A stretch of DNA of 64,000 nucleotides from a virus, in the IMG/VR virus record IMGVR_UViG_3300025141_007995, positions 1 through 64,000 of that record; one strand, given 5' to 3'. The position numbers and the translations under genes were made by a program. Shown one piece after another: positions 6,067 through 44,464 of the stretch. Every line of letters starts with the position of its first letter. Position 1 is the stretch's first letter. A model generated the notes under the pieces. The model saw only the letters and a program-made list of their open reading frames with translations. It was not told the DNA's origin and searched no databases.

Positions 6067-6068
6067 AG

Positions 6069-6761: not shown

Positions 6762-6770
6762 TTAATAACA

Positions 6771-14550: not shown

Positions 14551-14551
14551 T

Positions 14552-15817: not shown

Positions 15818-15819
15818 TT

Positions 15820-16900: not shown

Positions 16901-16902
16901 TT

Positions 16903-18131: not shown

Positions 18132-19213
18132 AAACAAAGATACGTAAAAAGTCCGCTTTAGTTCTAGGTGGAGGAGGATTTATAGGAGGACATTTAGCTA
18201 AAAGATTAAAAGAAGAAGGGTTTTGGGTTAGAATAGTAGATATCAAACACAAACATGAATATTTTAATCATAACGATATATGTAACGATTATGTAGCAGG
18301 TGACTTAAGAGACCCTAAAGTAGTTGAAGCAGTATTTAGAATAGAAACAGATCCTAATCATAAGGATGTTATTTATAACTATAATTTCTATAAACAACCT
18401 TTTACTAACGTAGAAGCTTTTGATGAAGTTTATCAATTAGCTGCTGATATGGGAGGAGCTGGCTATATATTTACCGGAGATAATGATGCAAATGTTATGC
18501 ATAACTCAGCATTAGTAAACTTAAATGTAGTAAACGAAGCTACTAAAACCGGAGTAGGTAGAATATTTTATTCTTCATCAGCTTGTATGTACCCAGAACA
18601 TAATCAATTAGATCCTGATAACCCTAATTGTGAAGAGTCATCAGCTTACCCAGCAGATCCAGATAGTGAATACGGATGGGAAAAACTATTTAGTGAGAGA
18701 TTATATTTTGCTTTTAATAGAAATTATAATTTAGATGTAAGAGTAGCTCGTTATCATAATATTTTTGGTCCTGAAGGAACATACGATGGAGGTAGAGAGA
18801 AAGCTCCTGCTGCTATGTGCCGTAAAGCTGCTGAAGGAAAAGAAGAAATAGAAGTATGGGGAAGTGGTAATCAAACAAGATCATTTATGTATGTAGACGA
18901 ATGTGTTGAAGCTACTTTAAGGTTAATGAGACAAGATAAGTTCTTAGGCCCTGTTAATATTGGATCAGAAGAAATGGTTACTATTAATGAATTAGCTCAA
19001 ATAGCAATAGACCTTTCCGGAAATAATCTTTCTATAAAAAATATTGATGGTCAAGAGTTTATAGACAAATATGGCTTTCCTTGTCCGTTAGGAGTAAATG
19101 GTAGAAATTCTCATAATAAATTATATAGACAAAAAATAGGATGGGAGTCTAAAGCTACTCTTAAAGAAGGAATGGCTAAAACTTTTAAATGGATTAAAAA
19201 ACAAATAAAATGA
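18128..19213 (+). CDS. gme: GDP-mannose 3,5-epimerase
   Basis: 361 aa, close to the ~377 aa of plant GME. It is an extended SDR with GGGGFIGG (14-21). The GME-diagnostic stretches are QLAADMGG (103-110), SSAC (150-153), YGWEK (182-186), GGREKAPAAMCRKA (221-234), TRSFMYVDECVEA (250-262) and GRNSHNKL (325-332). Cys152, Tyr182 and Lys186 are the expected catalytic residues, with Lys225 in REKAP. The expected reaction converts GDP-D-mannose to GDP-L-galactose (and GDP-L-gulose). The start at 18128 (ATGA overlap) is preferred over an in-frame ATG at 18098. It is probably cytoplasmic and feeds the island's glycosyltransferases. Confidence 0.87.
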   Translation: MKTKIRKKSALVLGGGGFIGGHLAKRLKEEGFWVRIVDIKHKHEYFNHNDICNDYVAGDLRDPKVVEAVFRIETDPNHKDVIYNYNFYKQPFTNVEAFDEVYQLAADMGGAGYIFTGDNDANVMHNSALVNLNVVNEATKTGVGRIFYSSSACMYPEHNQLDPDNPNCEESSAYPADPDSEYGWEKLFSERLYFAFNRNYNLDVRVARYHNIFGPEGTYDGGREKAPAAMCRKAAEGKEEIEVWGSGNQTRSFMYVDECVEATLRLMRQDKFLGPVNIGSEEMVTINELAQIAIDLSGNNLSIKNIDGQEFIDKYGFPCPLGVNGRNSHNKLYRQKIGWESKATLKEGMAKTFKWIKKQIK

Positions 19214-19518
19214 TAAGTAAAAGAGCAAAAACATTTTTCGATTATAATAAAATATTATTTACTTTATCTAAAGTTATTGGAGCATGGGTGAATGGCAATA
19301 CTGAACTGGTAGGAGTAAATAGTAATTATGAAAAAAGAATAATAGACGTAGATACTGACTTTGTACCTGCTACTAAAGATAACGGTTGGAAGTTTTCTAT
19401 AGTTCTATCGTACGATTTAAGTAATAACCTTAATAAAGAACAAGTAGCAACAACTCTTAATAGCTTAATATCAGATACAATCGACCCTTTACCTCGTAAT
19501 AATAGAACTAGTGGATAA
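19210..19518 (+). CDS. Hypothetical protein
   Basis: 102 aa. An N-terminal amphipathic helix is followed by strands (KRIIDVDTDFVPATKDNGWKFSIVLSYDLS). No domain is recognised. It overlaps the epimerase stop by four bases and is part of the same coupled operon. Confidence 0.55.
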   Translation: MISKRAKTFFDYNKILFTLSKVIGAWVNGNTELVGVNSNYEKRIIDVDTDFVPATKDNGWKFSIVLSYDLSNNLNKEQVATTLNSLISDTIDPLPRNNRTSG

Positions 19519-19756
19519 AATAAGAAAACTATTAGTTATGTTTGGTAACCTATTCGATCCAGGATGGTATGCTAATAAGATAAACGAAAAGTTAGGAGTT
19601 TATGAGTGGGCAAAGAAAAGTAAGTTTCGTAAATGGCAAGAAGGTTTAACAGGCTGGAAGTTTTGGGCTTGGCAGTTAGTAGGAGGTTTAACTTTTGTTA
19701 TTGTTATAGAGTTCTTACTCAATAAAATAGGTATGACAATGTTACCTTGGAAATAA
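19511..19756 (+). CDS. Small membrane-associated protein
   Basis: 81 aa from a GTG at 19511; an ATG at 19538 would give 72 aa. A Trp-rich amphipathic part (FRKWQEGLTGWKFWAWQLVGG) leads into one C-terminal membrane helix (LTFVIVIEFLLNKIGM). It could anchor the glycan machinery at the inner membrane, but no family is recognised. Confidence 0.5.
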   Translation: MDKIRKLLVMFGNLFDPGWYANKINEKLGVYEWAKKSKFRKWQEGLTGWKFWAWQLVGGLTFVIVIEFLLNKIGMTMLPWK

Positions 19757-19760
19757 AAAA

Positions 19761-20552
19761 ATGAATAAAAAGATATTACTATTTACGACTATTGGTGAAC
19801 TCTCTGAAGAGTCTCAAGCTCATGTTAATGCTAGCTTTCAATCTTGGAAAGATTACGGTTTAGACATATTAGTATTTGGTGAAACTTTTCATAAGGATTT
19901 ATGTAATAAGTTCGATGCTAAACTAGATACATCAGTAGAGAAATCAGAATTTGGTATACCATTAGTTAGGAGTTTATTTTTAAAAGCGTTGGAATATGAT
20001 GGATTTGATATGTTTTGTTATATTAATTCTGACATTATTTTTGACAAAGATCCTAGACGAGTACTTGAACTAATTGAGTTTAAATCGTTTATGGCTGTTG
20101 GACAAAGATTAGATGTATGGGATTGGCCTAATATAACCAAAAAGGAAGCTCATAATCCAGGAGGTATCGATTACTTCTTTATGACAAAAGACTTTAGAGA
20201 CTGGAGCGATATGCCAGACTTTAGTGTAGCTAGAGGAAGATTCGATCATTGGATTATGGGCAAGGCCTTAGAAAGTGGCAAAGCAGTAGTAGACCTTACT
20301 AAAGTATTTTTACCAATTCATCCTGAACCTAAGAATAGGATATCAGCTAATCCTGATGTACAGTATGCTAATGGAATGGTTAAGTTAGGATATCAACAGT
20401 ATAGAAATATGAATATATTTTTAGACTTACAATGTCATGGACAAATTAATATGACACCTTTTATAATGACTAAAAAAGGATTAGAGAAAAGAACTGAAAT
20501 ACCCTTAAATGAGTTTAAACACCAATTCGAATACGACTATGAAAAATTTTGA
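19761..20552 (+). CDS. Glycosyltransferase-like protein
   Basis: 263 aa. KILLFTTIGELSEESQAHVNASFQSW opens like a GT-A nucleotide-binding domain. DMFCYINSDIIFDKDP (about 83-98) holds the metal-binding D-x-I-F element, and GGIDYFFM plus FDHWIMGKAL follow as acceptor-side elements. It overlaps the HAD gene by 14 bases. Substrate unknown. Confidence 0.6.
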   Translation: MNKKILLFTTIGELSEESQAHVNASFQSWKDYGLDILVFGETFHKDLCNKFDAKLDTSVEKSEFGIPLVRSLFLKALEYDGFDMFCYINSDIIFDKDPRRVLELIEFKSFMAVGQRLDVWDWPNITKKEAHNPGGIDYFFMTKDFRDWSDMPDFSVARGRFDHWIMGKALESGKAVVDLTKVFLPIHPEPKNRISANPDVQYANGMVKLGYQQYRNMNIFLDLQCHGQINMTPFIMTKKGLEKRTEIPLNEFKHQFEYDYEKF

Positions 20553-20913
20553 TTTATCTGAACCTAAAATTATAGTATTTGATTTAGACGGTACTTTGTT
20601 AAATGTTGATAAAAACCATTACGATAAAGCTACTCCTATCAAGCATAGAGTAAATATGGTTAATAAACTATACGATGAAGGTCATACGATTATAATAGAG
20701 ACAGCTAGAGGATGCGTAAGTGGAAAAAATTATTTCTTTTATACTTTAGAACAATGCAAAAAGTTTGGTTTAAAATTCCATACACTTCGTACAGGAGTTA
20801 AGTATGGAGCAGATCTATTTGTAGATGATAAAGGAATGTTAGATAATGATTTCTTCAAAGATGATGGAGAAGGAAAAAAATTAGAACCTTGGCAGTATAA
20901 AGATCGTGATTAA
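20539..20913 (+). CDS. HAD-family phosphatase (capsule-type)
   Basis: 124 aa from 20539. HAD motif I FDLDGTLL (14-21) supplies the nucleophilic Asp pair, TIIIETARG is motif II, and FVDDKG near the end is motif IV. The small size fits type C0 HADs found in capsule operons, which dephosphorylate sugar phosphates. An in-frame ATG at 20509 would lengthen it by 10 residues but deepen the overlap with the upstream gene. It ends one base into the next ATG. Confidence 0.72.
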   Translation: MKNFDLSEPKIIVFDLDGTLLNVDKNHYDKATPIKHRVNMVNKLYDEGHTIIIETARGCVSGKNYFFYTLEQCKKFGLKFHTLRTGVKYGADLFVDDKGMLDNDFFKDDGEGKKLEPWQYKDRD

Positions 20914-22241
20914 TGGCTAGTATAAGAAAGTTTATAAGCAAAAGTCCAAACATAGTAAAAAAGTTATATTATAAATTAGTTCCTTTCTATAAAAGATACG
21001 GATCAGAATTTAGAGATACTTATGACTTCTTACTCCATTCGATAGATTTTACCCCTTCCCAACTAAAGGAGTATCAGTTTTTTAAGTTAAGAGAAACTAT
21101 CTCTAATGCTTATGAAAACATACCCTACTATCATAAGTTGATGGTTGATTACGGTGTACCTAGATATATACACGATCCTTCTGATATTTCTAAGTTACCT
21201 ATACTTACTAAACAATTAGTAAAAGATAATTGGAAAGATTTAATCAATAAAAAATATAAAGGTGACATAATTACTTTCAAAACCTCAGGTTCAACTGGAG
21301 AGAAATTTAAGTTTTTAGGTAATGATAATTTATATAAAAGAGAAGCTGCATTTGTATTAAGAGCATTTAATATGCATAATGCCTCCCTATATGATAAACC
21401 TTCTGTATGGGTTAGAAGATATGCTCCTAAAGTTGGAGAGCCAATATCATATACTGATCATGAATTAAATAGAGTATATCTATCACCTTTTAATTTATCT
21501 CCTACTACTATTGAAAGCTATGTTAGAGAAATAGATAGAACATCAGCTGAAACTTTAGTTACTTATCCATCATTAGCTAATTTTATGGCTAATTTAATGT
21601 ATGATAAATGTTTAAGGTTTAAAAAAATTAAATCAATTCATGTAGCATCTGAAATGATACTTCCGGAATGGAGAAATAATGTAAGAGCTAAATTAGGAAT
21701 TAATCTGTATGCTCATTACGGTATGATGGAGAAGGTATCTTTCTTTTCTAATTTTTTAGGTAGTGATAAGTATGCTGAAAGTTTAGAGTACGGCTTTACT
21801 GAGATAGTAAACGGTGATGTTATAGGTACTGGCTTCTTAAATGATGTAATGCCTTTTATACGTTATTCTCCCGGTGATAGAGCTGTTAAAAACAGTGACA
21901 TTGAGTACTTCAATGCATTACCGGTAAGTGTAGATGATTTTATAGGAAGATCTACAGATATGATTTTTACTAAAGATGGTAGAAAGTTATCTGGAGTCAA
22001 TTTTTATACTATGATGTATAAAATACCTGGAGTTGAAATGTTTCAAATAACTCAAAAGTCTATTAATGAAATAATAGTTGATTATATACCTTCTGATAAA
22101 TGGGGAAAAGATACAGAAAACTGTATTATAGATGGTATGGAAGATAGAGTAGGTAAAGATATAAAATTAAAAGTTAATTCAGTTATAGAGTTAGAAAGAA
22201 GCTCTACTGGAAAATTTAAAACGATTAAAAATGAATGTTAA
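20913..22241 (+). CDS. CapK/PaaK-type adenylate-forming enzyme
   Basis: 442 aa. It has an ANL-superfamily layout with a phosphate-binding loop FKTSGSTGEKFKF (about 124-136), YPSLANFMANLM, an HYGMMEK adenosine-motif equivalent and RYSPGDRA (motif with the ribose-binding Asp). The C-terminal subdomain ends SSTGKFKTIKN, with the catalytic Lys region. CapK proteins of this type occur in capsule and O-antigen clusters. The likely role is acyl-adenylate or acyl-CoA formation for decoration of a sugar, but the acid is unknown. It overlaps the aminotransferase start by 11 bases. Confidence 0.76.
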   Translation: MASIRKFISKSPNIVKKLYYKLVPFYKRYGSEFRDTYDFLLHSIDFTPSQLKEYQFFKLRETISNAYENIPYYHKLMVDYGVPRYIHDPSDISKLPILTKQLVKDNWKDLINKKYKGDIITFKTSGSTGEKFKFLGNDNLYKREAAFVLRAFNMHNASLYDKPSVWVRRYAPKVGEPISYTDHELNRVYLSPFNLSPTTIESYVREIDRTSAETLVTYPSLANFMANLMYDKCLRFKKIKSIHVASEMILPEWRNNVRAKLGINLYAHYGMMEKVSFFSNFLGSDKYAESLEYGFTEIVNGDVIGTGFLNDVMPFIRYSPGDRAVKNSDIEYFNALPVSVDDFIGRSTDMIFTKDGRKLSGVNFYTMMYKIPGVEMFQITQKSINEIIVDYIPSDKWGKDTENCIIDGMEDRVGKDIKLKVNSVIELERSSTGKFKTIKNEC

Positions 22242-23226
22242 TTTAGATAATGTAAAACCTTACATATTATCAGATAGAGTAATATCATCTGATATGATTT
22301 ATTTAGATTGGAATGAAGGCTCAGCTATACCTGATAAGATGTTAAAAAGAATAAAAGATAAGTTGACTGACTTACACCATTATTCAGATCCTTCCAATAA
22401 CGAATTAAAAGAAGCTTTAGAATCTCATACTGGAGTTGATAAAACATTTATAGAAGTCTTTAACGGTTCAGATTCAGCTTTAGATTATACATTTCGAGTA
22501 TTATTAAATAGTAACGATAAAGTATGCATACCTTATCCTAATTATACTCAAGTAAATCAAACTATTACTTCATTAGGTTGTAGAGTTCTTAACTGCGATA
22601 TTAGTACCTTAGAAGAGAATATTAGATCGTTTAAACCTAAAGTAGTTTATTTATCTGTTCCTAATAATCCTTTAGGTTATGTTTACAATACGTTACCTTT
22701 AGCAGAAAAATATCCTGGTACTTTTTTTATAGTTGATGAAGCTTATGCTGAATTTTTTCCTAAATGTTCTATATTTGATCAAGCATATAAGTATGCTAAC
22801 GTTATAGTAACAAGAACTTTTTCAAAAGGTTTTGGATTAGCTGGGATAAGGCTTGGATATCTGACAACTAATTCTTATATTATGAATAAGATTAGGTCTA
22901 TTAATAACTTTAAACAGGTTAATACTTTAGCAGCTATAGCAGGAGTAGAAGCTTTAAAAGACTTTAAAAGTATACAATCTAATATTAATTTAACTAATAG
23001 AGTTAAGAAAATGTTTATAGGTATGCTTAAAGATTATAGAATAAGAGATAGTCATGCTAATTTTGTATTATTAGAGCATACCAGAGCTAAGGAAATAATA
23101 AATGAATTGAAGAGTTTAGGTATTTTAGTTAGAGATAGAAGTAAGTTTATTAATAATACAATGAGAATAACTATGGGTAGTGGAGCTGATATGCATCAAA
23201 TAGCTGAGATTATAAAAAAATACTAA
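22231..23226 (+). CDS. HisC-like PLP aminotransferase
   Basis: 331 aa, a little short for histidinol-phosphate aminotransferase (~350). Fold type I PLP features are NGSDSALDY (78-86), NNPLGY (145-150), DEAYAEF (169-175, PLP-ring Asp and Tyr) and TFSKGFGLAGIRLGY (196-210) with Lys199 as the Schiff-base residue. A phage has little use for histidine synthesis, so an amino-alcohol, amino-sugar or threonine-phosphate decarboxylase-like (CobD) role within the glycan cassette is more plausible. It overlaps the next gene by one base. Confidence 0.75.
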   Translation: MNVNLDNVKPYILSDRVISSDMIYLDWNEGSAIPDKMLKRIKDKLTDLHHYSDPSNNELKEALESHTGVDKTFIEVFNGSDSALDYTFRVLLNSNDKVCIPYPNYTQVNQTITSLGCRVLNCDISTLEENIRSFKPKVVYLSVPNNPLGYVYNTLPLAEKYPGTFFIVDEAYAEFFPKCSIFDQAYKYANVIVTRTFSKGFGLAGIRLGYLTTNSYIMNKIRSINNFKQVNTLAAIAGVEALKDFKSIQSNINLTNRVKKMFIGMLKDYRIRDSHANFVLLEHTRAKEIINELKSLGILVRDRSKFINNTMRITMGSGADMHQIAEIIKKY

Positions 23227-24506
23227 TGAAAAAAAATATATCATTTATAGGATTAGGTAAGCTAGGTTTACCTCTTGCTACTAATTTTGCTAAGAACGGA
23301 CATAATGTATTAGCAATAGATAAAAATCAAAAATTAATAGAGTTTGTAAATGGAAGAGAAGCACCTTGGTACGAAGTAGGATTAGAAGATAATCTTTCTG
23401 CTGCAGAACCTTATATAAAATACTCTACTGGGTATAAAGGTTTAGGTAAAACAGATATAACTATTATACTAGTTAATACTCCTTCCGTAAAGAAAGATGG
23501 ATCGTTTTCTAATTTATATATTGAACAATCTATTTACTCTATTTGTGAGGAGTTAAATAATGTTGGAAAGAAAGAGCATCATATTATCTTATCTTCTACT
23601 GTTATGCCTGGTTCTATTAATAATGACTTTATTCCTTTAATAAAATCTTTAACTAATTGTAAGGTTAGTTTTAGTTATGTACCTGACTTTGTAGCTATAG
23701 GTCAAGTTATAAAAGACTTTGAGAACCCAGATTTTCTTCTAATAGGTAGCGATACAAAAAAGTCATCTACATTAACTAAAAAGTTATACAAGACTATAAT
23801 TAAGTCTAAACCTCCTATTAAAGAATTAACTTTAGCTGAAGCAGAACTATGTAAAGTTTCTTTAAACGCATACATTACTACTAAAATATCTTTTGCTAAC
23901 TATTTAGGTACTTTAGCTAGTAAATTAGATCCGAATATTAATGTAGATAATATTACTGATACAATAGGATTAGATGTTAGAATAGGAACTAAATACTTTA
24001 GATCAGGAGGTCCTTATGGAGGTACTTGTTTTCCTAGAGATACTTGGGCATTTGCAAAGGTATCTGAAAAGGTAGGTTTAAAATCTCATCAAATGTATGC
24101 TAATGAAGAAATTAATAATCAAACAGATAGAGAAATATACGATAAGATAATGGTAAGAAATTCTCCTACCATAGGATTAGTAGGACTAGGATTTAAACCT
24201 GGTACTCCAGTTATCACTGAAGGTATAGCTACTAAGTTTTTAAATAGAATTAAAAATTTTCAATGCCAAGTTTACTTATACGATAGATATTCAGATGCTA
24301 TTGACGATATTATTAAAGAACATCCTGATATAGACTTTGTAGATTGTAGAGTAAATAATTATAAAATAGTTGATATTATTAGTGCTTGTGATTCTATAGC
24401 GTTCTGTAACGGAGATAAAGCTTACTTAGATAAAGAGCATTTTGATGGTGTAGATATGTTTGAAATTAATACTAAAAATATAGTAGACCCCTGGAGAGTA
24501 TTATGA
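23226..24506 (+). CDS. UDP-sugar 6-dehydrogenase (full length)
   Basis: 426 aa, the normal three-domain length. The N-domain has GLGKLGLPLATNFAKNGH. The central domain has the catalytic YGGTCFPRD. The C-terminal domain carries GLGFKPGTP, the substrate-binding region of UDP-glucose/UDP-N-acetylmannosamine dehydrogenases. Two such enzymes in one operon (also 17319) imply either two uronic acids or a division of labour between subunits. It overlaps its neighbours on both sides by 1-4 bases. Confidence 0.82.
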   Translation: MKKNISFIGLGKLGLPLATNFAKNGHNVLAIDKNQKLIEFVNGREAPWYEVGLEDNLSAAEPYIKYSTGYKGLGKTDITIILVNTPSVKKDGSFSNLYIEQSIYSICEELNNVGKKEHHIILSSTVMPGSINNDFIPLIKSLTNCKVSFSYVPDFVAIGQVIKDFENPDFLLIGSDTKKSSTLTKKLYKTIIKSKPPIKELTLAEAELCKVSLNAYITTKISFANYLGTLASKLDPNINVDNITDTIGLDVRIGTKYFRSGGPYGGTCFPRDTWAFAKVSEKVGLKSHQMYANEEINNQTDREIYDKIMVRNSPTIGLVGLGFKPGTPVITEGIATKFLNRIKNFQCQVYLYDRYSDAIDDIIKEHPDIDFVDCRVNNYKIVDIISACDSIAFCNGDKAYLDKEHFDGVDMFEINTKNIVDPWRVL

Positions 24507-25543
24507 AGGTACTATTTGCAAAACAACAACTAGATTTAGTAGGACCAAGACAATCATTTGCATATGCTGATGATCATGAGTTAGAAATACTAAGAGGGTT
24601 TCAAGGTAAGGTTTCTTTATGGGAAATGTTATGTGCTTTAAAAGCTGACTTTCTTATAACTCCTACCTTAGTACAAGCACCTTGGTTAAGTACTTTATTA
24701 GCTCAACCTGGGTATAAAGATACTATGCAAAAAACAACTTCGCAAGTTATTAATCCTAATGAATTTGATTTTGGAGCATACGATGTAGTTATTACTCATG
24801 ATTCATTCTTAGGATTACAAATAGATGCATTAAAAGCAAAGTTTCCTAAAACAGTTTTTGCATATCTATTAGCAGAACATTCTAGTTGGCAAATGCACAG
24901 GATAGGTTATAAGTATGATTTATATTTAGACCATACTTTAGAATCAGTAGATGATGTTGTAAGATTACCTCAAGCAGTTAACTTTTTATTTCCTAGAATA
25001 CCTGATAGAGTTAGAGAGTTATTCTATCAAGAAAGAACATCAGTATTTTTAGACTATAGGTCGTTAGGTTATTTTATAGGTAATGGTTCTAATAATTTTT
25101 TACTTACAGAAGATAAAGTTAATAAATTTTATGATAACCTTAAATTTAATTTACCATTAGAGAAAATTAGTAATGTATCTATGAAACCTTTTATGTTTGA
25201 TGAGGTTTATAATAATGATTCAATAGAGTACTATAGTAAATTATGTAGAACTAAATACTTTGTTTCTATTGCTAATAGAGTTGGTCAAGCAGCATTTGAT
25301 GCAGCTTCTGCTAATTGTATAGTATTTGGTAATTCTAAATCTAAACTTCATAAACTTTTATGTCATCCTTTTACTTTAATGGATGAAGAAATAAAAATAG
25401 AACATATTAAAAATAAAATAGATACGTTAGAAAATGATCCAAAACTATGTATGGAGATATTAGATAAGCAGAATGAATATTTATTAAAGACATGCGTAGA
25501 ACATCCTAAAAATGTATTTAAAAAATCTTTAGAATTAAAATGA
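24503..25543 (+). CDS. Possible GT-B glycosyltransferase
   Basis: 346 aa. KVLFAKQQLDLVGPRQSF and the strand DVVITHDSFLGLQIDALKAKFPKTVFAYLLAE resemble a GT-B N-domain. RTKYFVSIANRVGQAAFDAASANCIVFGNSKSKLHKLLC resembles the donor domain, where a shared transferase pattern places a conserved acidic/Gly-rich turn. No exact GT signature is seen, so the call leans on context between a dehydrogenase and a nucleotidyltransferase. Confidence 0.45.
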   Translation: MKVLFAKQQLDLVGPRQSFAYADDHELEILRGFQGKVSLWEMLCALKADFLITPTLVQAPWLSTLLAQPGYKDTMQKTTSQVINPNEFDFGAYDVVITHDSFLGLQIDALKAKFPKTVFAYLLAEHSSWQMHRIGYKYDLYLDHTLESVDDVVRLPQAVNFLFPRIPDRVRELFYQERTSVFLDYRSLGYFIGNGSNNFLLTEDKVNKFYDNLKFNLPLEKISNVSMKPFMFDEVYNNDSIEYYSKLCRTKYFVSIANRVGQAAFDAASANCIVFGNSKSKLHKLLCHPFTLMDEEIKIEHIKNKIDTLENDPKLCMEILDKQNEYLLKTCVEHPKNVFKKSLELK

Positions 25544-25968
25544 AAAAAGGAGTTATAGCAGGTAACTTTGATGTAATGCATCCAGGTTATATAAAAATGT
25601 TTAAAGAGTGTGCTGAGAATTGTGATTGTTTAATAGTACTTTTACATTCAGATCCTTCTATAGAAAGGCCTCATAAACTTAAACCTATTTTATCTACTAA
25701 AGAAAGAAGAGAGATGCTATCTGAGTTAAAATCTGTATGTGATGTATTTGAATATAATTATGAAGCTCAACTTTATGATTTACTTCAAGTAGGAGAGTTT
25801 GATATTAGATTTTTAGGTAGTGATTATATTAATAAACCTTTTACTGGTGATGATTTAAAAATACCTATTCATTATTTAGATAGATCACATGGATGGTCTA
25901 CTACTAGATTTAAAGAAGAAATAACTAGACAGGTTTACGAACAAAATAAATTATCAAAATACTTATGA
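25540..25968 (+). CDS. Cytidylyltransferase-like protein (HPGY variant)
   Basis: 142 aa, the size of glycerol-3-phosphate cytidylyltransferase. GNFDVMHPGYIKMF (8-21) aligns with GTFDxxHxGHxxxL, but the second catalytic His of HxGH is Tyr here (HPGY). The RTxGISTT motif appears as SHGWSTTR near the C-terminus, and LLHSDPSIERPHKLKPILSTKERREML carries the usual KP..S..eR segment. It should activate a phosphorylated sugar or polyol with CTP, although the His-to-Tyr change may lower activity or alter the donor. It starts four bases before the upstream stop. Confidence 0.7.
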   Translation: MKKGVIAGNFDVMHPGYIKMFKECAENCDCLIVLLHSDPSIERPHKLKPILSTKERREMLSELKSVCDVFEYNYEAQLYDLLQVGEFDIRFLGSDYINKPFTGDDLKIPIHYLDRSHGWSTTRFKEEITRQVYEQNKLSKYL

Positions 25969-26816
25969 AAATATTAGTAACAGGAGGTGCCGGAGGAGTT
26001 GGTACTAACCTTATAGAGAAATTATTAGAATTAGGTCACGAAGTAACCAGTTGGGATAACTACTCTGCTGGATTAGAATCTAATCATATAAAAGGAGCAA
26101 CATATATTAACAGAGATACTAGAGAAATGTCTTACGGATCAGGTCCTGGGACTATAAAAGGATTTGATTTAGTATACCATTTAGGAGAGTATTCAAAAGT
26201 AGTTCCATCATTCGATATACCAGAATTAGCCTTTAGGTATAATTTAGATGGTAGTATGAGAGTTTTAGAATCTTGTAGACATGAAAACATACCAGTTGTA
26301 TATGCAGGTTCTTCTACTAAACTATCTCATCCTGGTGAGTTAGGATCACCTTATGCTTTATATAAGTCTACTGTAGCTAAATTATTTCAATGCTATGGTG
26401 ACTGGTATGATTTAAAATATAATACCTGTTACTTCTATAATGTTTATGGTCCTAGAACCGAAACTTGGGCTAATGAATGGCAAACAGTTATTAATATATT
26501 TAGAGACCAAAAGAAAGCAGGAAAAAATTTAACTATTACAGGAGATGGAACTCAAAAAAGAGATTTTACTCATGTAGAAGATATAGTTCAAGGTTTAATA
26601 TTAGCAGGAGAAAATATTAACAATGAAGAGTATCAGTTAGGAACAGGAGAAGAGTTTAGTATTTTAGAAATAGCTAAAGCATTTGATCATCCTCATGAAT
26701 TTATAGATCCTAGACCGGGGGATAGACCCAACGGTTTAGCAGATATTAGTTCTACAAAAGAACGTTTAGGATATGAGCCTAAGCATAAAATAATGGATTA
26801 TATAAAAAATATATGA
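25965..26816 (+). CDS. NAD-dependent sugar epimerase/dehydratase
   Basis: 283 aa extended SDR. GGAGGVG (7-13) binds NAD, GSSTKLS supplies the Ser/Thr and YALYKS the catalytic Tyr-Lys. NVYGPRTETW and GDGTQKRDFTHVEDIVQG are UDP-glucose 4-epimerase-family signatures. It probably converts a nucleotide sugar in the island. It is distinct from the GME at 18128, lacking REKAPAA. It has four-base overlaps on both sides. Confidence 0.8.
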   Translation: MKILVTGGAGGVGTNLIEKLLELGHEVTSWDNYSAGLESNHIKGATYINRDTREMSYGSGPGTIKGFDLVYHLGEYSKVVPSFDIPELAFRYNLDGSMRVLESCRHENIPVVYAGSSTKLSHPGELGSPYALYKSTVAKLFQCYGDWYDLKYNTCYFYNVYGPRTETWANEWQTVINIFRDQKKAGKNLTITGDGTQKRDFTHVEDIVQGLILAGENINNEEYQLGTGEEFSILEIAKAFDHPHEFIDPRPGDRPNGLADISSTKERLGYEPKHKIMDYIKNI

Positions 26817-27760
26817 AAATAGCTTATATAAGTGAAATGGGTAATAGAGGTCAAATATCTCGAGTAGGTAGAGATTTTGATATGATGAGAACTGAATGGT
26901 CTTGGCCTTGTGCATTAGAAGCTGATCTATTTCCTTTTGATACAGAACCTCAGGGCATTATGTACGATTTAGGATTAGTAATACTTCCTAAACAACATTT
27001 ACATTTATGGAGAAATAGTAACTTCTTTGATAGAGCTAAAAAATTCTGTAAGAAGATAGCTATAATGCAAGAAGGTCCTCACTGGTGCTTCCAAGATTAT
27101 AAACTTGAAGATCAGATTTGGTACTATAATAGTTTAAAAAATGCAGATATATTATACGTACATAATAAATTAGATATAGAATATTATAGAGGAATTACAG
27201 ACCATAAAGATATAAGAATACTTCCTTCTCTAATGGTAACAGATAGAGTAGAGAATTTACCTGAAGTAGAAAGAGACGGTGTAATGATAGGAGGTAATTT
27301 TGTAAGCTGGTATGGAGGATTTGATTCGTATATGGTAGCTAAAAGTATAGATGAAACCATCTACTCTCCTCAGATGGGTAGAAGACAGGAAGGAGAAGAG
27401 CAGTTAGGAATTAATCAACTACCTTATATGAGTTGGGTAGATTGGATTAAAGCTTTAAATAATAGAAAATATGGCATTCATTTAATGAGAACTCATGCAG
27501 CTGGAACATTTGCTCTTAATTGTGCATTTTTAGGTATACCTTGTATAGGGTATAGAGGATTAGACACTCAAGAAATATGTCATCCTCAATTATCGATTGA
27601 AATAGGAGAAATAGAAAAAGCTAAAGAAATGCTTGGAAATCTGAAAAATAATTCGTATTTTTATAAAGAGTGTTCAGAGCAAGCAAAAGAGAATTATAAA
27701 AAATATTATCATGAAGATATCTTTAATACAACCTTCAAGAAACAATTTAAAATATCTTAA
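26813..27760 (+). CDS. Possible GT-B glycosyltransferase
   Basis: 315 aa. KIAYISEMGNRGQISRVGRDFDMMR and the strands ending KIAIMQEGPHWCFQDY and ADILYVHNKLDIEYYRG suggest a GT-B N-domain. HAAGTFALNCAFLGIPCIGYRGLDTQEICHP resembles the donor-sugar loop (A-x-G-x-P-x-I). The C-terminus overlaps the next gene by 50 bases, which is unusually deep for this operon. Substrate unknown. Confidence 0.5.
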   Translation: MKIAYISEMGNRGQISRVGRDFDMMRTEWSWPCALEADLFPFDTEPQGIMYDLGLVILPKQHLHLWRNSNFFDRAKKFCKKIAIMQEGPHWCFQDYKLEDQIWYYNSLKNADILYVHNKLDIEYYRGITDHKDIRILPSLMVTDRVENLPEVERDGVMIGGNFVSWYGGFDSYMVAKSIDETIYSPQMGRRQEGEEQLGINQLPYMSWVDWIKALNNRKYGIHLMRTHAAGTFALNCAFLGIPCIGYRGLDTQEICHPQLSIEIGEIEKAKEMLGNLKNNSYFYKECSEQAKENYKKYYHEDIFNTTFKKQFKIS

Positions 27761-28886
27761 ATGGTCTTACGATTCTATTAGAAAGAATCAAGGAGATCAT
27801 GAGGTACAAATATGTGTAGCGGACGATGCTTCTTCTGATGGTACTTCTGAATGGTGTAAACAAATTGCAAAAGAAGATAAACTATTTAAATTTATTAGAA
27901 ACGAAGGTCCTGAAAGGTTAGGTCATACAATTCTATATGACACTTTGATTAATGAAGTAGCTACATTTGACATTGCTATGATTTATCATGCAGATATGTA
28001 CTTATGTCCTGAAGCTTTAGATTATGTAGAAAAATTAATTGAACCTAAAGTTATAGTATCTTTAACAAGAATAGAACCTCCAATGCATCCTGATGGACCT
28101 GAAAAAGTACTATTAGCTTGTGGAGAAGAACCAGAAAGATTTAGAGAGCAAGCAGTATTAAATTATGTATTTAAAAATACTGATAGAGATAAAGTAACAG
28201 AAGGTATATTTGCTCCATGGGCTTTTTATAGGAAAGACTTCCAAGAGATAGGAGGACATGATCCTTTATATGCTCCTCAATCGAAAGAAGATACTGATAT
28301 ATTTAACAGATTTCAGTTAAATGGAGTTAAATTTAAACAAACATGGGGAGGTTTTGTATACCATATGACATGTAGAGGTAGTAGAAGAAATGTATTAGAT
28401 GCTGCTAAAAATATACACGAAGATAGTCCTGAATGGTCAGCTCAGAATATGAGATCTACTCGTAACTTTATACGTAAATGGGGTCATTTTTGTAAACATG
28501 ATACATTAATGAAGCCTATTATACCTCCTAAGTACAATATTAGATTTAATCTTACTAATACTACTTTGGATAAATTACATATGTTAGAACCTTGGTGTGA
28601 TAACTTAGATACAGATATTTCCACAGAAGAATTAGACAGATATATAAAAGCAGAACAAAAAAATACTATAATTGATTTAAAGCCTAAGTTTAATTATAAT
28701 AGAAATAGTGATATCACAGTTAATATAGATTGTAATACTTTCACTAATGAAGACTTTATTAACTTATCTAGAATGTCTCAAATTATAAAAGATAGTGGAG
28801 CAGTAGGAGAGTTTAATTTAGGTAATCTATTTATTAATATAGTAAGAGTTAAAGAATATACAGATAATTTAATTAAGTTAAAATGA
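27711..28886 (+). CDS. GT-A glycosyltransferase (GT2) with C-terminal extension
   Basis: 391 aa. ISLIQPSRNNLKYLKWSYDSI and VADDASSDGTSEW form the GT2 nucleotide-binding start. IAMIYHADMYLCPEAL provides the DxD-like HAD(M)Y metal site, and FDPL-like HDPLYAPQSKEDTDIFNRF holds the ED catalytic region. The ~100-residue C-terminal extension has no recognised domain. It is the last glycosyltransferase of the island, followed by a 61-aa gene overlapping by four bases. Confidence 0.75.
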   Translation: MKISLIQPSRNNLKYLKWSYDSIRKNQGDHEVQICVADDASSDGTSEWCKQIAKEDKLFKFIRNEGPERLGHTILYDTLINEVATFDIAMIYHADMYLCPEALDYVEKLIEPKVIVSLTRIEPPMHPDGPEKVLLACGEEPERFREQAVLNYVFKNTDRDKVTEGIFAPWAFYRKDFQEIGGHDPLYAPQSKEDTDIFNRFQLNGVKFKQTWGGFVYHMTCRGSRRNVLDAAKNIHEDSPEWSAQNMRSTRNFIRKWGHFCKHDTLMKPIIPPKYNIRFNLTNTTLDKLHMLEPWCDNLDTDISTEELDRYIKAEQKNTIIDLKPKFNYNRNSDITVNIDCNTFTNEDFINLSRMSQIIKDSGAVGEFNLGNLFINIVRVKEYTDNLIKLK

Positions 28887-34477: not shown

Positions 34478-36787
34478 ATGCAAGGAACATTATTTTCTTC
34501 TGATTACGTAATAGATGCTAACGGTAATGAAAGATTAATTGAAATCAATACTGATACTGCGTTTACAGACGACTTTATAGAGAACTATTTAAACTTAACT
34601 GACTTTATTAATATACTTTCTACTAATAGTATAGTAGAGGTAGTAATTATATATAAAGACTTCCATTATAATTTTGCAAATAAATTAGAAGAAGTATTAA
34701 GCACTCAGTTACCTTCTATTACATATACTAGACATTTAGAAGACATAAATTCTATCTATCCAGGTTCAGTTACAGACGCAGCTAATAAATTTATATTAAG
34801 ACTTGCTTATAATGAAAACGCATTATTTGATTCAACTTATGCTAAAAATAAATTAAACTTATTTGAATTATTTGTAGACAATAATAATACAACTGAAATA
34901 GCTGAATTTTACCATTCAGGATCTGACGGAATCACTAATACAATTACAGCTTCAACTAATGCATCAAACATTCCAGATTATATATCTAAACCAGCAGAAG
35001 TTCTTCACTCATCTTATAACCTATATAAAGGAGTTTCCGGTTCTAACGATCAAGAGAAATTAGATAATGTAATAGAAGAAGTAGAAGATATTGAAAGAGT
35101 TGATAAAATGATACAAAAGTATCATTATAATAGTGGCCAAGTTGAAAGTGATAGAATTACATCTATTAGATTATTTTCTATAGTTTATGGTACTGATATT
35201 AAATTAGTACATTTAGGTATAGCTAAATCTTCAGCAATATTGACTATACCAACTTCAATTGAATATGATTACAGAGGAAAAGGAAGATTAAAACTACAGC
35301 ATTACTACGAATTTGCTACTAATTTTCCTAAGATGAATCGTAAGCAAGGAGGATTTAGACCTACTGTAAAAGTATTAAAAACTGATAATACAGGAGTTGA
35401 ATTAAGCTCAGTAAAAGTAAATGATGTATTAGCTTCATATTATGTTTCTGGATCACCAGATACTGATAGCGGATCAGCATTAGTTGAATGGAGTGTACCA
35501 GGTGATACTATTCCTTCTGGTTCTTTTAGAACTAGTTCAGTAGTTTTTCAAGCTATGTCATCTTCAGCAGGTGATGCTACTTTAGGTAGATTAGTTACTA
35601 ACGATGGATTTGAACTTCCAGTTACACCATCAACAGTATTTTTAGTACACAATGCTTCTACTAATACAGTTACATATGAAACTATGCATAATATTAACTC
35701 AGGAGATAGTTTATTTGATCTTGATGGTAATAAGTTTTTAGTTTCACAATCATTATTAGACGTTTATTCAGATGAAGATAATATAGTTCATGAATTAAAC
35801 ATGGAATCAACCGATATGTACATCCTTAGTGCTTCAGGTATATTAGTTCACAATGCTCCTTGTTTTATAGCTGGGACTATGATAGAATGTGAAGATCTAA
35901 TTAAACCTATAGAGGAAGTTAATGAAGGAGATAGAGTAGCTACTTACAATCATGAAACTAACGAAATAGAATTTAAAACAGTCGAAGAAATTAGTATGTA
36001 TGATAATAAACCTATTATTAAAGTTACTATAGGTGATATAGATATTACTAGCACACATGATCATCCATACTATGTAGAAGGTAAAGGATATGCTTCTTAT
36101 AATCCTATTCAAACTTTTGAAGATGCTGGTTTAGAAGTAGCTAAGTTAGAAGTAGGAGATAAAGTAATGGATTATTATAAAAGTTTTGTAGAGGTAGTAA
36201 GTATAGAAGAGTTAGAAGAAACTGAGACTGTTTTTAATCTTAAACACGTAAAGGATAATAATAACTTTTATGCTAATAACTTCTTAGTTCATAATAGATC
36301 TGGTTGCTTTGTAGCAGGAAGTGAAGTAGCTTTAGCTAATGGTGATCATAAAAATATAGAAGATGTTGTCATTGGAGATTTAGTATTAAGTTGGAATGAA
36401 GAAACTCAACTAATTGAAGTAGATGAAGTATACGATACCGTTACTCCTGTTAATACCAGACTTTACGATTTAACTTTTACTGACTCTAAAATTACCTGTA
36501 CTCATGATCATCCAGTTTATGTCAGAAATGGAGAGGAAGCTTCTTCTTTTGAACTAAAATCTATGTCACCAGAACAAAGTAACGAAAAATATAATTTACC
36601 TCATAAAGTTACTGAACTACTGATAGGAGATAATGCTATTAATATTCATAATTCTGGAAGTAAATTAGAAAAAGCTGAGTATCATAATAGATTAGTAGGA
36701 TGGGCAGATCCTGTAGCAACCTATACTTTAAGAGTTAAAAATAATAATAACTTCTTTGTTAATGGAATATTAGTACACAATAAATAA
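34478..36787 (+). CDS. Large protein with tandem C-terminal Hint (intein-like) domains
   Basis: 769 aa. Residues 1-~390 form a strand-rich body; IDANGNERLIEINTDT near the start recalls ATP-grasp-like ends seen in marine phage proteins. From Cys462 a Hint domain begins CFIAGTMIEC, has a THDHPYY block and ends NNFLVHN. A second starts at Cys610 (CFVAGSEVAL), has CTHDHPVY and ends NGILVHNK at the stop. A degenerate module ends GILVHN just before Cys462. Residues after HN are Ala and Arg, not Cys/Ser/Thr, so autocleavage rather than true splicing is expected (BIL-like). Probably virion-associated. Confidence 0.75.
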   Translation: MQGTLFSSDYVIDANGNERLIEINTDTAFTDDFIENYLNLTDFINILSTNSIVEVVIIYKDFHYNFANKLEEVLSTQLPSITYTRHLEDINSIYPGSVTDAANKFILRLAYNENALFDSTYAKNKLNLFELFVDNNNTTEIAEFYHSGSDGITNTITASTNASNIPDYISKPAEVLHSSYNLYKGVSGSNDQEKLDNVIEEVEDIERVDKMIQKYHYNSGQVESDRITSIRLFSIVYGTDIKLVHLGIAKSSAILTIPTSIEYDYRGKGRLKLQHYYEFATNFPKMNRKQGGFRPTVKVLKTDNTGVELSSVKVNDVLASYYVSGSPDTDSGSALVEWSVPGDTIPSGSFRTSSVVFQAMSSSAGDATLGRLVTNDGFELPVTPSTVFLVHNASTNTVTYETMHNINSGDSLFDLDGNKFLVSQSLLDVYSDEDNIVHELNMESTDMYILSASGILVHNAPCFIAGTMIECEDLIKPIEEVNEGDRVATYNHETNEIEFKTVEEISMYDNKPIIKVTIGDIDITSTHDHPYYVEGKGYASYNPIQTFEDAGLEVAKLEVGDKVMDYYKSFVEVVSIEELEETETVFNLKHVKDNNNFYANNFLVHNRSGCFVAGSEVALANGDHKNIEDVVIGDLVLSWNEETQLIEVDEVYDTVTPVNTRLYDLTFTDSKITCTHDHPVYVRNGEEASSFELKSMSPEQSNEKYNLPHKVTELLIGDNAINIHNSGSKLEKAEYHNRLVGWADPVATYTLRVKNNNNFFVNGILVHNK

Positions 36788-41616: not shown

Positions 41617-41817
41617 ATGTTAAGAATAAAAATAGGTAAAAAAGAAAATATTAATCAAGCGATAAAACGTTTAAAAAGAAAAGTTAGAAATACTGGTCTA
41701 ATTAAACAGATTAGAGAGAATAGATATTTCGAAAAACCTTCTGCTGTTAAAAGAAAAAGAAAGCAGAAAGCAGTATACCAGAAGAACTGGGAAATGAAAA
41801 ACGGAATAGATATATAA
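41617..41817 (+). CDS. rpsU: Ribosomal protein bS21
   Basis: 66 aa, the size of bacterial S21. IKIGKKENINQAIKRLKRKVRNTGLIKQIRENRYFEKPS follows the bS21 pattern (E-N-x-x-A-L-K-R-x-K-R-K, then L-R-x-R-x-x-F-x-K-P-S). A basic tail carries the family's KAVYQKNW ending. It would bind 16S rRNA next to the anti-Shine-Dalgarno sequence. Phage-encoded bS21 is known and can replace the host copy. The start abuts the previous stop. Confidence 0.87.
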   Translation: MLRIKIGKKENINQAIKRLKRKVRNTGLIKQIRENRYFEKPSAVKRKRKQKAVYQKNWEMKNGIDI

Positions 41818-41828
41818 AAAAAGAAGAT

Positions 41829-42056
41829 ATGAGCGATAGAGAAATCATGAGTGCTAAAGGTATGGGATCGGGATACCCCCATGAATTTGCTTCAACTAAA
41901 ATGGATCAACCAGATCCAACTATTGAAGAAAACAATAGATATAGACAAGGTAAATCACCTAAACAGATGAGAAGTAGTTATATAGGAGCTGCTATATCAG
42001 GTATAGGATTAGTACTAACAATAATTTTAATCTTATTAGATAAATACTTATTTTAG
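41829..42056 (+). CDS. Small C-terminal-anchored membrane protein
   Basis: 75 aa. A polar N-terminus is followed by one C-terminal membrane helix (YIGAAISGIGLVLTIILILLD, about 51-71). Tail-anchor topology; no motif. It lies 11 bases after bS21, in the same operon. Confidence 0.5.
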   Translation: MSDREIMSAKGMGSGYPHEFASTKMDQPDPTIEENNRYRQGKSPKQMRSSYIGAAISGIGLVLTIILILLDKYLF

Positions 42057-42060
42057 AATT

Positions 42061-42459
42061 ATGAAAAAGTTAGAAAGTATAGATAAGTTTTTAATTGCTG
42101 CTCTAATATTGTTCACATTTATGTTATGTGGTTCAGTATCAGCACAAGAAAGATATTCTGTAGAAAAAGTACAAAATGCTTATATTATTGATTTTGAGGA
42201 TGCATGGTTAGATTATAGGTGGGATTCAAATGGTAATGAGGTTAAATCATTTGGTAAGTTAATATTAGATAAGAAAGAATATAAAACATTAATTAAAGAT
42301 ATTAAAAGATTACTTAATCAAACCGAAGCAGATATAGAAAGACGTAGTTATTCAATATTAAAATGGAGTTGGGATAAGGATAGCGTTTGGATTTATCAAA
42401 ACAAAAAAGCTTTTGGAGTATCTGAAGAAGATATAAAATTATTAAATAGTAAACTATAA
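42061..42459 (+). CDS. Exported hypothetical protein
   Basis: 132 aa with a signal peptide ending VSA before QER, matching other exported proteins here. The mature part is charged and helical/strand mixed (LDKKEYKTLIKDIKRLLNQTEADIE). Likely periplasmic. No family is recognised. Confidence 0.55.
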   Translation: MKKLESIDKFLIAALILFTFMLCGSVSAQERYSVEKVQNAYIIDFEDAWLDYRWDSNGNEVKSFGKLILDKKEYKTLIKDIKRLLNQTEADIERRSYSILKWSWDKDSVWIYQNKKAFGVSEEDIKLLNSKL

Positions 42460-42464
42460 AAATA

Positions 42465-42606
42465 TGCCCAGTAGAGCAGTAGGTAGCTCACTCTGGCTTA
42501 ACCCGGCGCGAAGTGGATCATAAACGTAATGTGAAACTTGTAATAGATACGATCGTGAAAAGCAAAGGGGTTAGAGAGGCCGCAGGTTCGAGTCCTGCCT
42601 GGGTTA
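42465..42606 (+). tRNA. Interrupted tRNA-like gene, anticodon unassigned
   Basis: The 5' end gives an acceptor strand (TGCCCAG), TA, a D-arm (GAGC, AGTAGGTA, GCTC) and CTCTG. The 3' end gives TAGAG, a 5-base variable region AGGCC, a perfect T-arm (GCAGG, TTCGAGT, CCTGC) and acceptor CTGGGTT. CTCTG/TAGAG can form the anticodon stem, but about 76 bases lie between them instead of 7. Acceptor pairing is 6 bp with one end mismatch, and no CCA is encoded. The insert is far too short for a group I intron. Either a short intron is removed, the gene is decayed, or it is a structured RNA derived from a tRNA. Confidence 0.5.
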
Positions 42607-42639
42607 ACTAATAAAGTCAGAAAATAAAATAAATATATT

Positions 42640-43092
42640 ATGGTAGAATATAGAAATAGATACGGAGATGTTTATACCTTTGAGCCGTTAGAAAACGGAA
42701 ACATTCAATGGAGTGGTAATTTTAAACATTGCAGGTGTGGAATGCCTAATGATTATACCAAAGCTTGGGAAAAATTCCAAGAAAATTATGGTGGGTTAGA
42801 TTATGAAGAATTTGTAGGTAGTGTTCATAACTATGATGAAGAAACAAACTCTTATGTATTTGCTGACCTTGTACCTTTAATCACCTCTAAAAAAGATGTA
42901 ATCAATATGGTAGACCCAAGTGGCGGTCCATACATCACAGAAGGAACTGATATGAAAAGGTTTAGATTAAAAGGAATAGTTAAAGAGTTTATCTCCAATG
43001 AAAACGGATACGAAATAATAGTAGATGGGTGTAATCCACCTGAATTAGATAATGAATCCAGATTAATAAATGAAATTTCTCTAAAAAAATAA
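42640..43092 (+). CDS. Hypothetical protein
   Basis: 150 aa. It has a Trp/Cys-containing stretch (WSGNFKHCRCGMPNDYTKAW) and a C-terminal strand domain (MKRFRLKGIVKEFISNENGYEIIVDGC). One CxC could bind metal, but no full site is seen. It lies between the tRNA-like locus and the ligase, two bases from the latter. Confidence 0.5.
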   Translation: MVEYRNRYGDVYTFEPLENGNIQWSGNFKHCRCGMPNDYTKAWEKFQENYGGLDYEEFVGSVHNYDEETNSYVFADLVPLITSKKDVINMVDPSGGPYITEGTDMKRFRLKGIVKEFISNENGYEIIVDGCNPPELDNESRLINEISLKK

Positions 43093-43093
43093 T

Positions 43094-44356
43094 ATGTTAG
43101 AATATACTGAGTTTATAAAGGCAATGCGAGCTACAAGCAGCAGCACAGATAAAGTTCAAATTATTAAGAACGCAAGTAGTGATGTTCATATGTTATTAGA
43201 GTATACTTATAATCCATTTAAACAGTATTATGTTACAAGTAAAACCTGTAAGAAAAGAAGTGATTTGATTAAAGGTACAAATGATTTAGCTTTATTTGAA
43301 TTATTAGAAAAATTAACTAATAGAGAAATAACAGGACATGATGCTGTACGCTGTATAAATGATGTTGCTATTGGAATTGACAATCCAATTATTTATAAAA
43401 TTATAGATAAAGATTTAGGTATTAGAGCAGGAGCAAAAGTAATCAACAAAGCAGTGCCGGGTCTAATTCCAGAATTCAATGTAGCATTAGCACAAGAATA
43501 TGATGGTAAATGTGATTGGAAGGATCATTGGTACGTTAGTAGGAAATTAGACGGTGTACGTTGTTTAGCTATGGTAGATGAAAATGGTAAATGTACACTT
43601 TATTCTAGAATGGGTAAAGAATTAACTACATTAAATAAAATAAAAGAAGCAATCGAAGCAACTAATATAATCAATACGGTGTTTGATGGTGAGATTTGTT
43701 TAATGGATGAAGAAGGTAATGAAGATTTTCAAGGTGTAATGAAGCAATTGAGACGTAAAGATCATCAAATTGAAAATCCTATATTCATGATATTTGATAT
43801 GATTCATAAATCTGAATTTGATAATCAAAAAGGTACTGAGAAATTATCTGATAGATTAGCTAAATTAAGAGCATGGCAAGGTGGAAGACGTACAGATGTT
43901 AATATATTACGTTATACAGAACAATTCCAAATAACAGATAATGATCATTTTGATTATTGGTGTGAACAACCCAAACAAGAAGGTTGGGAGGGTATTATGT
44001 TACGTAAAGATGTAGCTTATGAAGGTAAACGTAGTAAAAATTTACTTAAAGTAAAGAAATTCTATGATGCTGAGTATGAAGTAATTGATTTTGATGTTGA
44101 TGATCATGAAGTAGTTAGAGATGGTAAATCAGAAACAATTAAAATGTTAGCCCAAGTATGGATTGAACATAAAGGTCATAAAGTAAAAGTTGGTAGTGGT
44201 TGGAATCAAGATCAACGTTTAAAATATATGGATGGTTCAATTGTAGGTAAAATAATTACAGTTCAATACTTTGAAGAAACATATAATCAAGAAGGAGGAA
44301 TTAGTTTAAGATTCCCAACAGTAAAAATTGTTCACGGAGAAAAAAGAGAATTATAA
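43094..44356 (+). CDS. lig: ATP-dependent DNA ligase
   Basis: 420 aa. Motif I is KLDG with Lys151 as the adenylated residue, in YVSRKLDGVR. Downstream, TVFDGEICL is motif III-like (F-D-G-E), WEGIMLRK is motif IV (E-G-(I/V)-x-x-K) and LLKVKKF motif V. The OB domain has WIEHKGHKVKVGSG. It seals nicks in DNA during replication and recombination. It is the size of T4-like phage ligases (~490) minus part of the N-terminal region. Confidence 0.9.
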   Translation: MLEYTEFIKAMRATSSSTDKVQIIKNASSDVHMLLEYTYNPFKQYYVTSKTCKKRSDLIKGTNDLALFELLEKLTNREITGHDAVRCINDVAIGIDNPIIYKIIDKDLGIRAGAKVINKAVPGLIPEFNVALAQEYDGKCDWKDHWYVSRKLDGVRCLAMVDENGKCTLYSRMGKELTTLNKIKEAIEATNIINTVFDGEICLMDEEGNEDFQGVMKQLRRKDHQIENPIFMIFDMIHKSEFDNQKGTEKLSDRLAKLRAWQGGRRTDVNILRYTEQFQITDNDHFDYWCEQPKQEGWEGIMLRKDVAYEGKRSKNLLKVKKFYDAEYEVIDFDVDDHEVVRDGKSETIKMLAQVWIEHKGHKVKVGSGWNQDQRLKYMDGSIVGKIITVQYFEETYNQEGGISLRFPTVKIVHGEKREL

Positions 44357-44357
44357 T

Positions 44358-44447
44358 ATGAGTACAACATTAGAAGGATTAGTGGTGCTATTAGTTTTTG
44401 CAACAATATGTGCAATAATAATTTGGAAAATGGAGCCAGGTGAATAA
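44358..44447 (+). CDS. Tiny single-TM membrane protein
   Basis: 29 aa: a membrane helix (LVVLLVFATICAIIIWK) with a polar MEPGE end. It begins two bases after the ligase stop. Tiny proteins of this kind are common in phage operons; no function can be given. Confidence 0.4.
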   Translation: MSTTLEGLVVLLVFATICAIIIWKMEPGE

Positions 44448-44464
44448 ACACCAAAGAGACTAAG

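Follow-up and report, generated by a model that had tools for sequence, protein, structure and literature searches.

A candidate family of tRNA-shaped phage RNAs with a conserved domain in place of the anticodon loop

The stretch of DNA that we analysed (hereafter, the window; 64,000 nucleotides of a 66.7-kb viral contig) carries at 42465-42606 an element in which, read directly from the sequence, only the anticodon loop of a class-I tRNA is lacking (Table 1). Between the two arms of a 5-bp anticodon stem (CTCTG/TAGAG) lie 76 nt (42496-42571) where a normal loop has 7 nt, in exact agreement with the count given in the original prediction. The intact acceptor, D arm, variable region, and T arm that it had described can likewise be read off directly, and the stems covary across the relatives reported below. 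The pairing extends further than had been proposed: the anticodon-side stem comprises 7 bp (CTCTGGC/GTTAGAG), not 5, and a 4-nt bulge (TTAA) separates it from a 3-bp helix (CCC/GGG). As for the earlier suggestion that AACCC and GGGTT at the ends of the insert hold it closed, the CCC/GGG helix is real and covaries, with four pair types, whereas the flanking part turns out to be the TTAA bulge and the 7-bp stem on which the helix stacks. Elsewhere in the window, a long block of sugar genes (13117-28886; glycosyltransferase-, UDP-sugar dehydrogenase-, epimerase-, and cytidylyltransferase-like by protein reading) is unusual for a phage contig of 67 kb, and a 769-aa protein (34478-36787) shows matches to intein/Hint-type domains at residues ~461-606 and 606-691, as well as a repeated block of the NNNNF-VHN type (repeat D4), and so apparently contains twin protein-splicing or Hint modules.

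Table 1. Parts of the tRNA-shaped element in the window and the evidence for each.
Feature	Position	Strand	Evidence
Whole element, tRNA-shaped RNA, long form, 142 nt	42465-42606	+	Sequence; covariance model R1, 172 bits; covariation
U1, mismatched with U42605 (position 72)	42465	+	Sequence
Acceptor stem, 5' strand GCCCAG	42466-42471	+	Two-sided changes at 5/6 acceptor pairs across the family
UA between acceptor stem and D arm	42472-42473	+	Sequence
D arm GAGC-AGTAGGTA-GCTC	42474-42489	+	100% paired; two-sided changes at 3/4 pairs
A26	42490	+	Sequence
5-bp anticodon-stem arms CTCTG / TAGAG	42491-42495 / 42572-42576	+	Sequence
7-bp anticodon-side stem, 5' strand CTCTGGC (partner 42570-42576)	42491-42497	+	100% paired; two-sided changes at 5/7 pairs
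One-sided bulge TTAA	42498-42501	+	Kept in nearly all members; TAAA in L036/L050, TTATAA in L046
Insert helix, 5' strand CCC (partner GGG 42567-42569)	42502-42504	+	100% paired; middle pair CG 14 / UA 13; inner pair four types
Near-invariant insert GGCGC (family: RRCGC)	42505-42509	+	Alignment
Hairpin in two parts (AAGT/ACTT and CAT/ATG), optional, long form only	42511-42539	+	Two-sided changes at A1 48:78 and 58:69
Invariant core CGATCGTGAAAAGC	42550-42563	+	Identical in 31/31 alignment rows
3' strands: insert helix GGG + 7-bp stem GTTAGAG	42567-42576	+	Covariation
Variable loop AGGCC	42577-42581	+	Sequence
T arm GCAGG-TTCGAGT-CCTGC	42582-42598	+	Stem 100% paired, two-sided changes at 3/5 pairs; T loop the same in all rows
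Acceptor 3' strand CTGGGT (42599-42604), U72, discriminator A73 (42606); CCA not encoded	42599-42606	+	Sequence

We searched for relatives with a 23-mer from the 5' half and a 17-mer from the insert, both of which recovered the element in other phage contigs; a pattern joining the insert core to the T arm enlarged the set, and a pattern spanning both sides of the insert gave no extra member. Besides the window, relatives were found in 33 phage contigs with 31 different IMG sample IDs, making 34 copies with that of the window. The insert measures 42-76 nt across the family and, long or short, sits within a tRNA body in every relative; the two-part hairpin is missing from short forms, whose total length is ~112 nt, such as L015, L020, L036, L037, L039, L046, and others. 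The exact 17-mer core likewise always fell within a tRNA body, save for two chance matches in unrelated sequence (L017 and L025). One contig (L001), at 99.9% identity over 4.8 kb, amounts to a second record of essentially the same virus, and another (L008) is a close relative with ~91% identity over kilobases. The element is a conservation island within a region of gene turnover: both genes that flank it are replaced in L008, yet the 174 nt around it are 97% identical. Across 41816-44464 of the window, the small genes on either side of the element and an ATP-dependent DNA ligase gene (43094-44356) are unmatched in L008, and the element and the outer regions are kept. Misassembly, which the original prediction had raised as a concern, is ruled out by the near-identical or homologous copies in other samples. 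In relatives of the downstream gene P0002 (L004-L007), the element is missing from the stretch before that gene, and we therefore do not regard the two as tied to each other.

The family is known from metagenome contigs only, and these are mostly fragments. Sensitive blastn searches of isolate phage genomes and plasmids returned generic T-arm or chance matches and not the element, and in bacterial genomes a first scan with exact patterns gave 0 matches and a second gave 26, none of which is the element. No family in Rfam 15 matches the whole element, and we found no published description of the family in the literature that we searched, in which subscription journals were thinly represented. 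By its baseplate protein the phage is nearest, among isolates, to Flavobacterium phage immuto (57% identity), from which we infer that the host lineage is probably flavobacteria.

The standard tools return no tRNA call at this locus. ARAGORN reported no tRNA anywhere in the 64-kb window, the Rfam tRNA model gave the element 18.3 bits, under its cut-off of 29, and Rfam searches of the window and the members produced sub-threshold or short-form tRNA matches only. The folding energy of the element is not significant either (z -0.86; no better than shuffled sequence), and the fold is accepted here on the conservation and covariation seen in relatives, not on folding energy alone. Two alignments were used: A1, made with MAFFT from 14 members, and A2, a model-based alignment of 31 matches (28 distinct sequences) with 35 pairs. 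In A2, which was fitted to the model and is hence biased towards it, 98.2% of cells hold standard pairs, 21 of the 35 pairs change on both sides, and 120 cells show two-sided changes, compared with 30 ± 5 for shuffled controls and no more than 26 with the partners slid. A1, which was not fitted, agrees with A2 (18 pairs with two-sided changes vs 5 in shuffles). Covariation was found in the acceptor, D, anticodon, and T stems and also in the insert helix, where the three pairs that follow the UUAA bulge (CYN/NRG) are always formed and the inner position shows four pair types. Past this helix, RRCGC is near-invariant and CGAUCGUGAAAAGC is invariant. Conservation in parts of the insert indeed exceeds that of the tRNA body, with 16 of 21 columns invariant in the 3' part of the insert vs 15 of 30 from the variable loop to the acceptor. 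Taken as sequence comparison, these patterns indicate that the fold is under purifying selection. They also dispose of one of three options that the original prediction had offered, namely a decayed tRNA, a reading which the lack of calls by standard tRNA finders would fit, as it would fit an assembly error. Both are refuted: copies come from 31 further sample IDs, the covariation is strong, selection appears to be purifying, and the insert is better conserved than the body that carries it.

A second of those options was that the insert is a tiny intron. Stated more fully, the insert would be a very small intron of a novel type in the precursor of a working tRNA, either self-splicing or cut by an unrecognised enzyme, with a host ligase rejoining the halves. 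The insertion does lie in the anticodon arm, the usual site of tRNA introns and the site at which archaeal bulge-helix-bulge and bacterial group I tRNA introns are found, and the base of the insert (bulge, short helix, internal loop) loosely resembles the archaeal splice motif. We examined every contiguous deletion that leaves a 5-bp stem, a 7-nt loop, and a 4-5-nt variable loop. No cut gives, across the family, either U33 in a 7-nt loop or a single conserved anticodon, and nearly all members have C or A at position 33. In most members, a deletion past the seventh nucleotide of the loop would yield GCUUAAC (C33; anticodon UUA, reading UAA), and this is the most tRNA-like product of excision, but it is not conserved. 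Stop codons are used in the ordinary way in the window, where TAA terminates 48 of 69 long frames, so that no ochre suppression is needed. The enzymes expected of such a process were sought in the member contigs, most of which are fragments: EndA was found in none of the 15 contigs searched, RtcB in none of the same 15, and RNA ligase in none of 25, the exception for the latter two being an unrelated virus (L051) that has several interrupted tRNAs and does carry both RtcB and RNA ligase. Thus, unlike archaeal bulge-helix-bulge introns, the element has no family-wide U33 product and no EndA was found with it. It differs from group I introns in being too small and in lacking the catalytic core of group I or group II, and no Rfam intron family matched the window or six member loci. 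An insert of 42-76 nt is far smaller than known self-splicing introns. We conclude that the tiny intron is not supported and consider it unlikely, while treating it as the main rival to the reading developed below.

Several other loci with tRNA-like matches were encountered. The unrelated virus just mentioned (L051, also L104; IMGVR_UViG_3300033747_000022, 203,584 bp) has a run of tRNA genes with replaced anticodon loops at 6046-6159, 6386-6506, 6517-6633, and ~6643-6765, and a further tRNA match at 102482-102606 of the contig. Their inserts have in common the motif AAAATAT-[hairpin]-TTAACAGCAA, which differs from that of the window family; the RNA ligase of this virus is of the Rnl2 type, and a CAGCAA motif is repeated in other intergenic stretches. 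Phage tRNAs may have been interrupted a second time, independently, in this virus. In Vibrio phage JSF10 (L013, 358-434), an unannotated tRNA-like match of normal length to the body of the model (37 bits) lies beside annotated tRNAs. In two Micrarchaeota contigs (L067 and L078), ARAGORN in bacterial mode missed archaeal tRNAs that carry insertions in their anticodon region; these chance finds are probably archaeal introns of the ordinary kind.

The body most resembles a flavobacterial initiator tRNA. Among the tRNAs of one Flavobacteriales genome, initiator tRNA-Met aligned far better than any other to the body carried by the window, with a score of 23 against 12 for the runner-up, which bears out the first of the two types, Met and Lys, that had been proposed for the 5' half. 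In keeping with this, the covariance model, run on 101 genomes of one flavobacterial family, gave best matches of ~75 nt that reached at most 62.6 bits among the matches listed, vs at least 105 bits for complete members of the family, and initiator-type tRNA-Met stood at each of the top eight loci. The element has in common with flavobacterial tRNA-fMet the body sequence GTRGAGCAGTWGGTAGCTC, AGGYC, an A11-U24 pair in most members, and an unpaired 1:72. Pair 1:72 is unpaired in bacterial initiator tRNAs; of 26 distinct sequences in the family, 20 have a mismatch there and the remaining 6 have one at 2:71. The element lacks two things that tRNA-fMet has, a CAU anticodon and the triplet of G-C pairs in the anticodon stem (29-31:39-41), and the long form holds 76 nt in place of the 7-nt loop. 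Resemblance to the initiator is lost in members with a different D stem, such as L014. An initiator-like body and a complete tRNA core might suggest a tRNA whose oversized anticodon arm serves unusual decoding, frameshifting, or initiation. Such a role in translation is very improbable in our judgement, as the anticodon, U33, and the 7-nt loop are all missing along with the initiator G-C triplet; moreover, the acceptor stem differs widely among members and position 73 varies (17 A, 10 G, and 1 T; n = 28), so no shared charging identity is visible.

The element shares the coding strand with the unrelated genes that flank it, and it often follows a stop codon by 3-20 nt. In 16 loci (e.g., L014, L015, L016, L018, L020, L037, L042, and L048) one conserved gene is found upstream, either directly or across tRNA genes; this gene is QueC (7-cyano-7-deazaguanine synthase; Pfam PF06508), which is present in 16 of 27 contigs, and in L016 the order is queC, tRNA-Ala, tRNA-Gln, element. 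A link to queuosine was considered and rejected: a search of the same contigs yielded no TGT gene, and we therefore treat the proximity of queC as neighbourhood only and read no queuosine function into it. Small unrelated genes adjoin the element at other loci, that of the window included. The box TTCGTATATT or a variant (TTCGTATCTT, TTTGTATATT) precedes the element by 15-19 nt in six members (L028, L036, L038, L046, L047, and L050). An intergenic repeat of the window, AGTTG-N8-GAG-TATTCTTCTTATATT (at 29848, 32397, 36932, 38028, 39852, 40432, 45312, and 46727), ends in a box like TTCGTATATT and is probably the promoter of this phage lineage. Given the order of tRNA genes at some loci and the promoter-like box before the element at others, the RNA would be made either within a tRNA operon or by transcription on its own. 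A position between unrelated genes and close behind a stop codon is also what one would expect if the element acted in cis, its tRNA-like fold being a processing mark in mRNA (tRNA punctuation) that RNase P and tRNase Z cut in order to separate or trim transcripts. We think this improbable, more so than the intron: punctuation requires a tRNA body only, which leaves an insert more conserved than the body unexplained, and it does not account for members that stand right after a promoter-like box.

We also compared the element with known RNAs that combine a tRNA-like part with something else. In tmRNA, a tRNA-like body carries an extra domain on the anticodon side, and short frames can be read in the insert, so that the element might be pictured as a reduced tmRNA with a short tag frame on that side. 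The principle is common to both and the parts are not: neither ARAGORN nor Rfam gave a tmRNA match, a family-wide tag frame is missing (the candidate frame varies among members and is nearly gone in short forms), and the D stem is present, unlike in tmRNA. This identity is barely credible. The reading frame of the insert, VDHKRNVKLVIDTIV..., was itself discarded as not conserved. The bacterial Y RNA YrlA, like the element, joins a tRNA-like module to an extra stem; identity with Y RNA was rejected, as the Rfam match to YrlA is weak (E 0.8; 16.2 bits vs a gathering score of 69) and no TROVE/Ro gene was found in the 25 contigs searched. In phage T4, rnaC (species 1) and rnaD (species 2) are stable non-coding RNAs of 139 and 119 nt that lie in a tRNA cluster and have no known role (PMC3014915, PMC9697503). 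They are the nearest precedents to the element, and the former is close to it in size and has a T arm at its end. As homologues the T4 RNAs were rejected: covariance model R1, run on L034, matched neither rnaC nor rnaD, and no comparable insert in the anticodon loop is recognisable in them. The nearest functional analogy, which is not a relative, is the engineered tRNA scaffold, in which the cell processes and protects a structured foreign RNA that has been joined to a tRNA body (PMC3753655); the element differs in being natural, conserved, and phage-borne.

Taken together, sequence comparison supports a predicted tRNA-like fold, selection on that fold, the unity of body and insert, and a position in an operon or near a promoter-like box firmly enough that we regard these as established at that level. 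The best reading of them, which we hold to be somewhat better than an even bet, is that the element represents a new family of tRNA-shaped non-coding RNAs that do not decode, built on an initiator-tRNA scaffold with a conserved domain in place of the anticodon loop. Similar modest confidence attaches to its two components jointly, that the insert belongs to the working RNA and that this RNA does not decode. The initiator-tRNA body would serve as scaffold, and the loop domain would consist of the 7-bp stem, the UUAA bulge, the 3-bp helix, and an internal loop and tip containing CGAUCGUGAAAAGC. RNase P and tRNase Z would release the RNA as they do a tRNA, CCA would be added after processing, and the insert would be retained in the mature RNA, which would be stable and act in trans. 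The tRNA body would then confer survival and docking on a tRNA-binding factor, and the tip would make the specific contact. A frayed, initiator-like end without an anticodon would make ordinary decoding impossible, and proteins that grip tRNA bodies could still handle the RNA. Of the three options in the original prediction, a tRNA-derived regulatory RNA has therefore fared best insofar as it names a tRNA-derived non-coding RNA; its regulatory part corresponds to the role in trans that we can only suppose.

As to what such an RNA might act on, an antisense role is unsupported, since we found no complementarity to rRNA or to the window. Antisense pairing with, or mimicry of, rRNA (E. coli rRNA was used for the comparison) was no better than with shuffled sequence, and a 9-nt identity to 23S rRNA, GUGAAAAGC, is at chance level. 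Phage tRNAs have been proposed or shown to counter host defences that cut tRNAs, partly through altered anticodon loops (PMC10264068, PMC11555353), and the element, like the counter-defence tRNAs (PMC10264068), is a phage-encoded tRNA shape with an altered anticodon loop. From this, and from a body that tRNA-binding proteins could grip, comes our tentative guess of a decoy or inhibitor: the RNA might occupy or divert a tRNA-handling factor of the host, such as a translation factor or a defence nuclease directed at anticodons. More speculative still than the non-decoding reading, and in our estimate well short of an even chance, is a broader proposal, that the family is a natural tRNA scaffold in which an initiator tRNA carries a conserved anticodon-end domain acting in trans on the tRNA-handling or defence machinery of the host, and that it belongs to a wider, overlooked class of phage tRNAs with replaced loops, to which the several tRNAs of the unrelated virus L051, with their own shared motif, would also belong.

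The element probably is a previously undescribed kind of phage tRNA-like non-coding RNA with a job other than translation. Genes of this type escape standard tRNA finders, and a class of phage RNAs may thus be hidden. With its initiator-tRNA body, its invariant core, and a covariance model, the family offers material for testing, by which the role of the non-decoding stable RNAs in phage tRNA clusters becomes approachable, T4 rnaC and rnaD being examples without a known one (PMC3014915, PMC9697503). It would provide a natural precedent for the engineered tRNA scaffold, and it may expose a new way in which phages handle host translation or a defence that targets tRNA.
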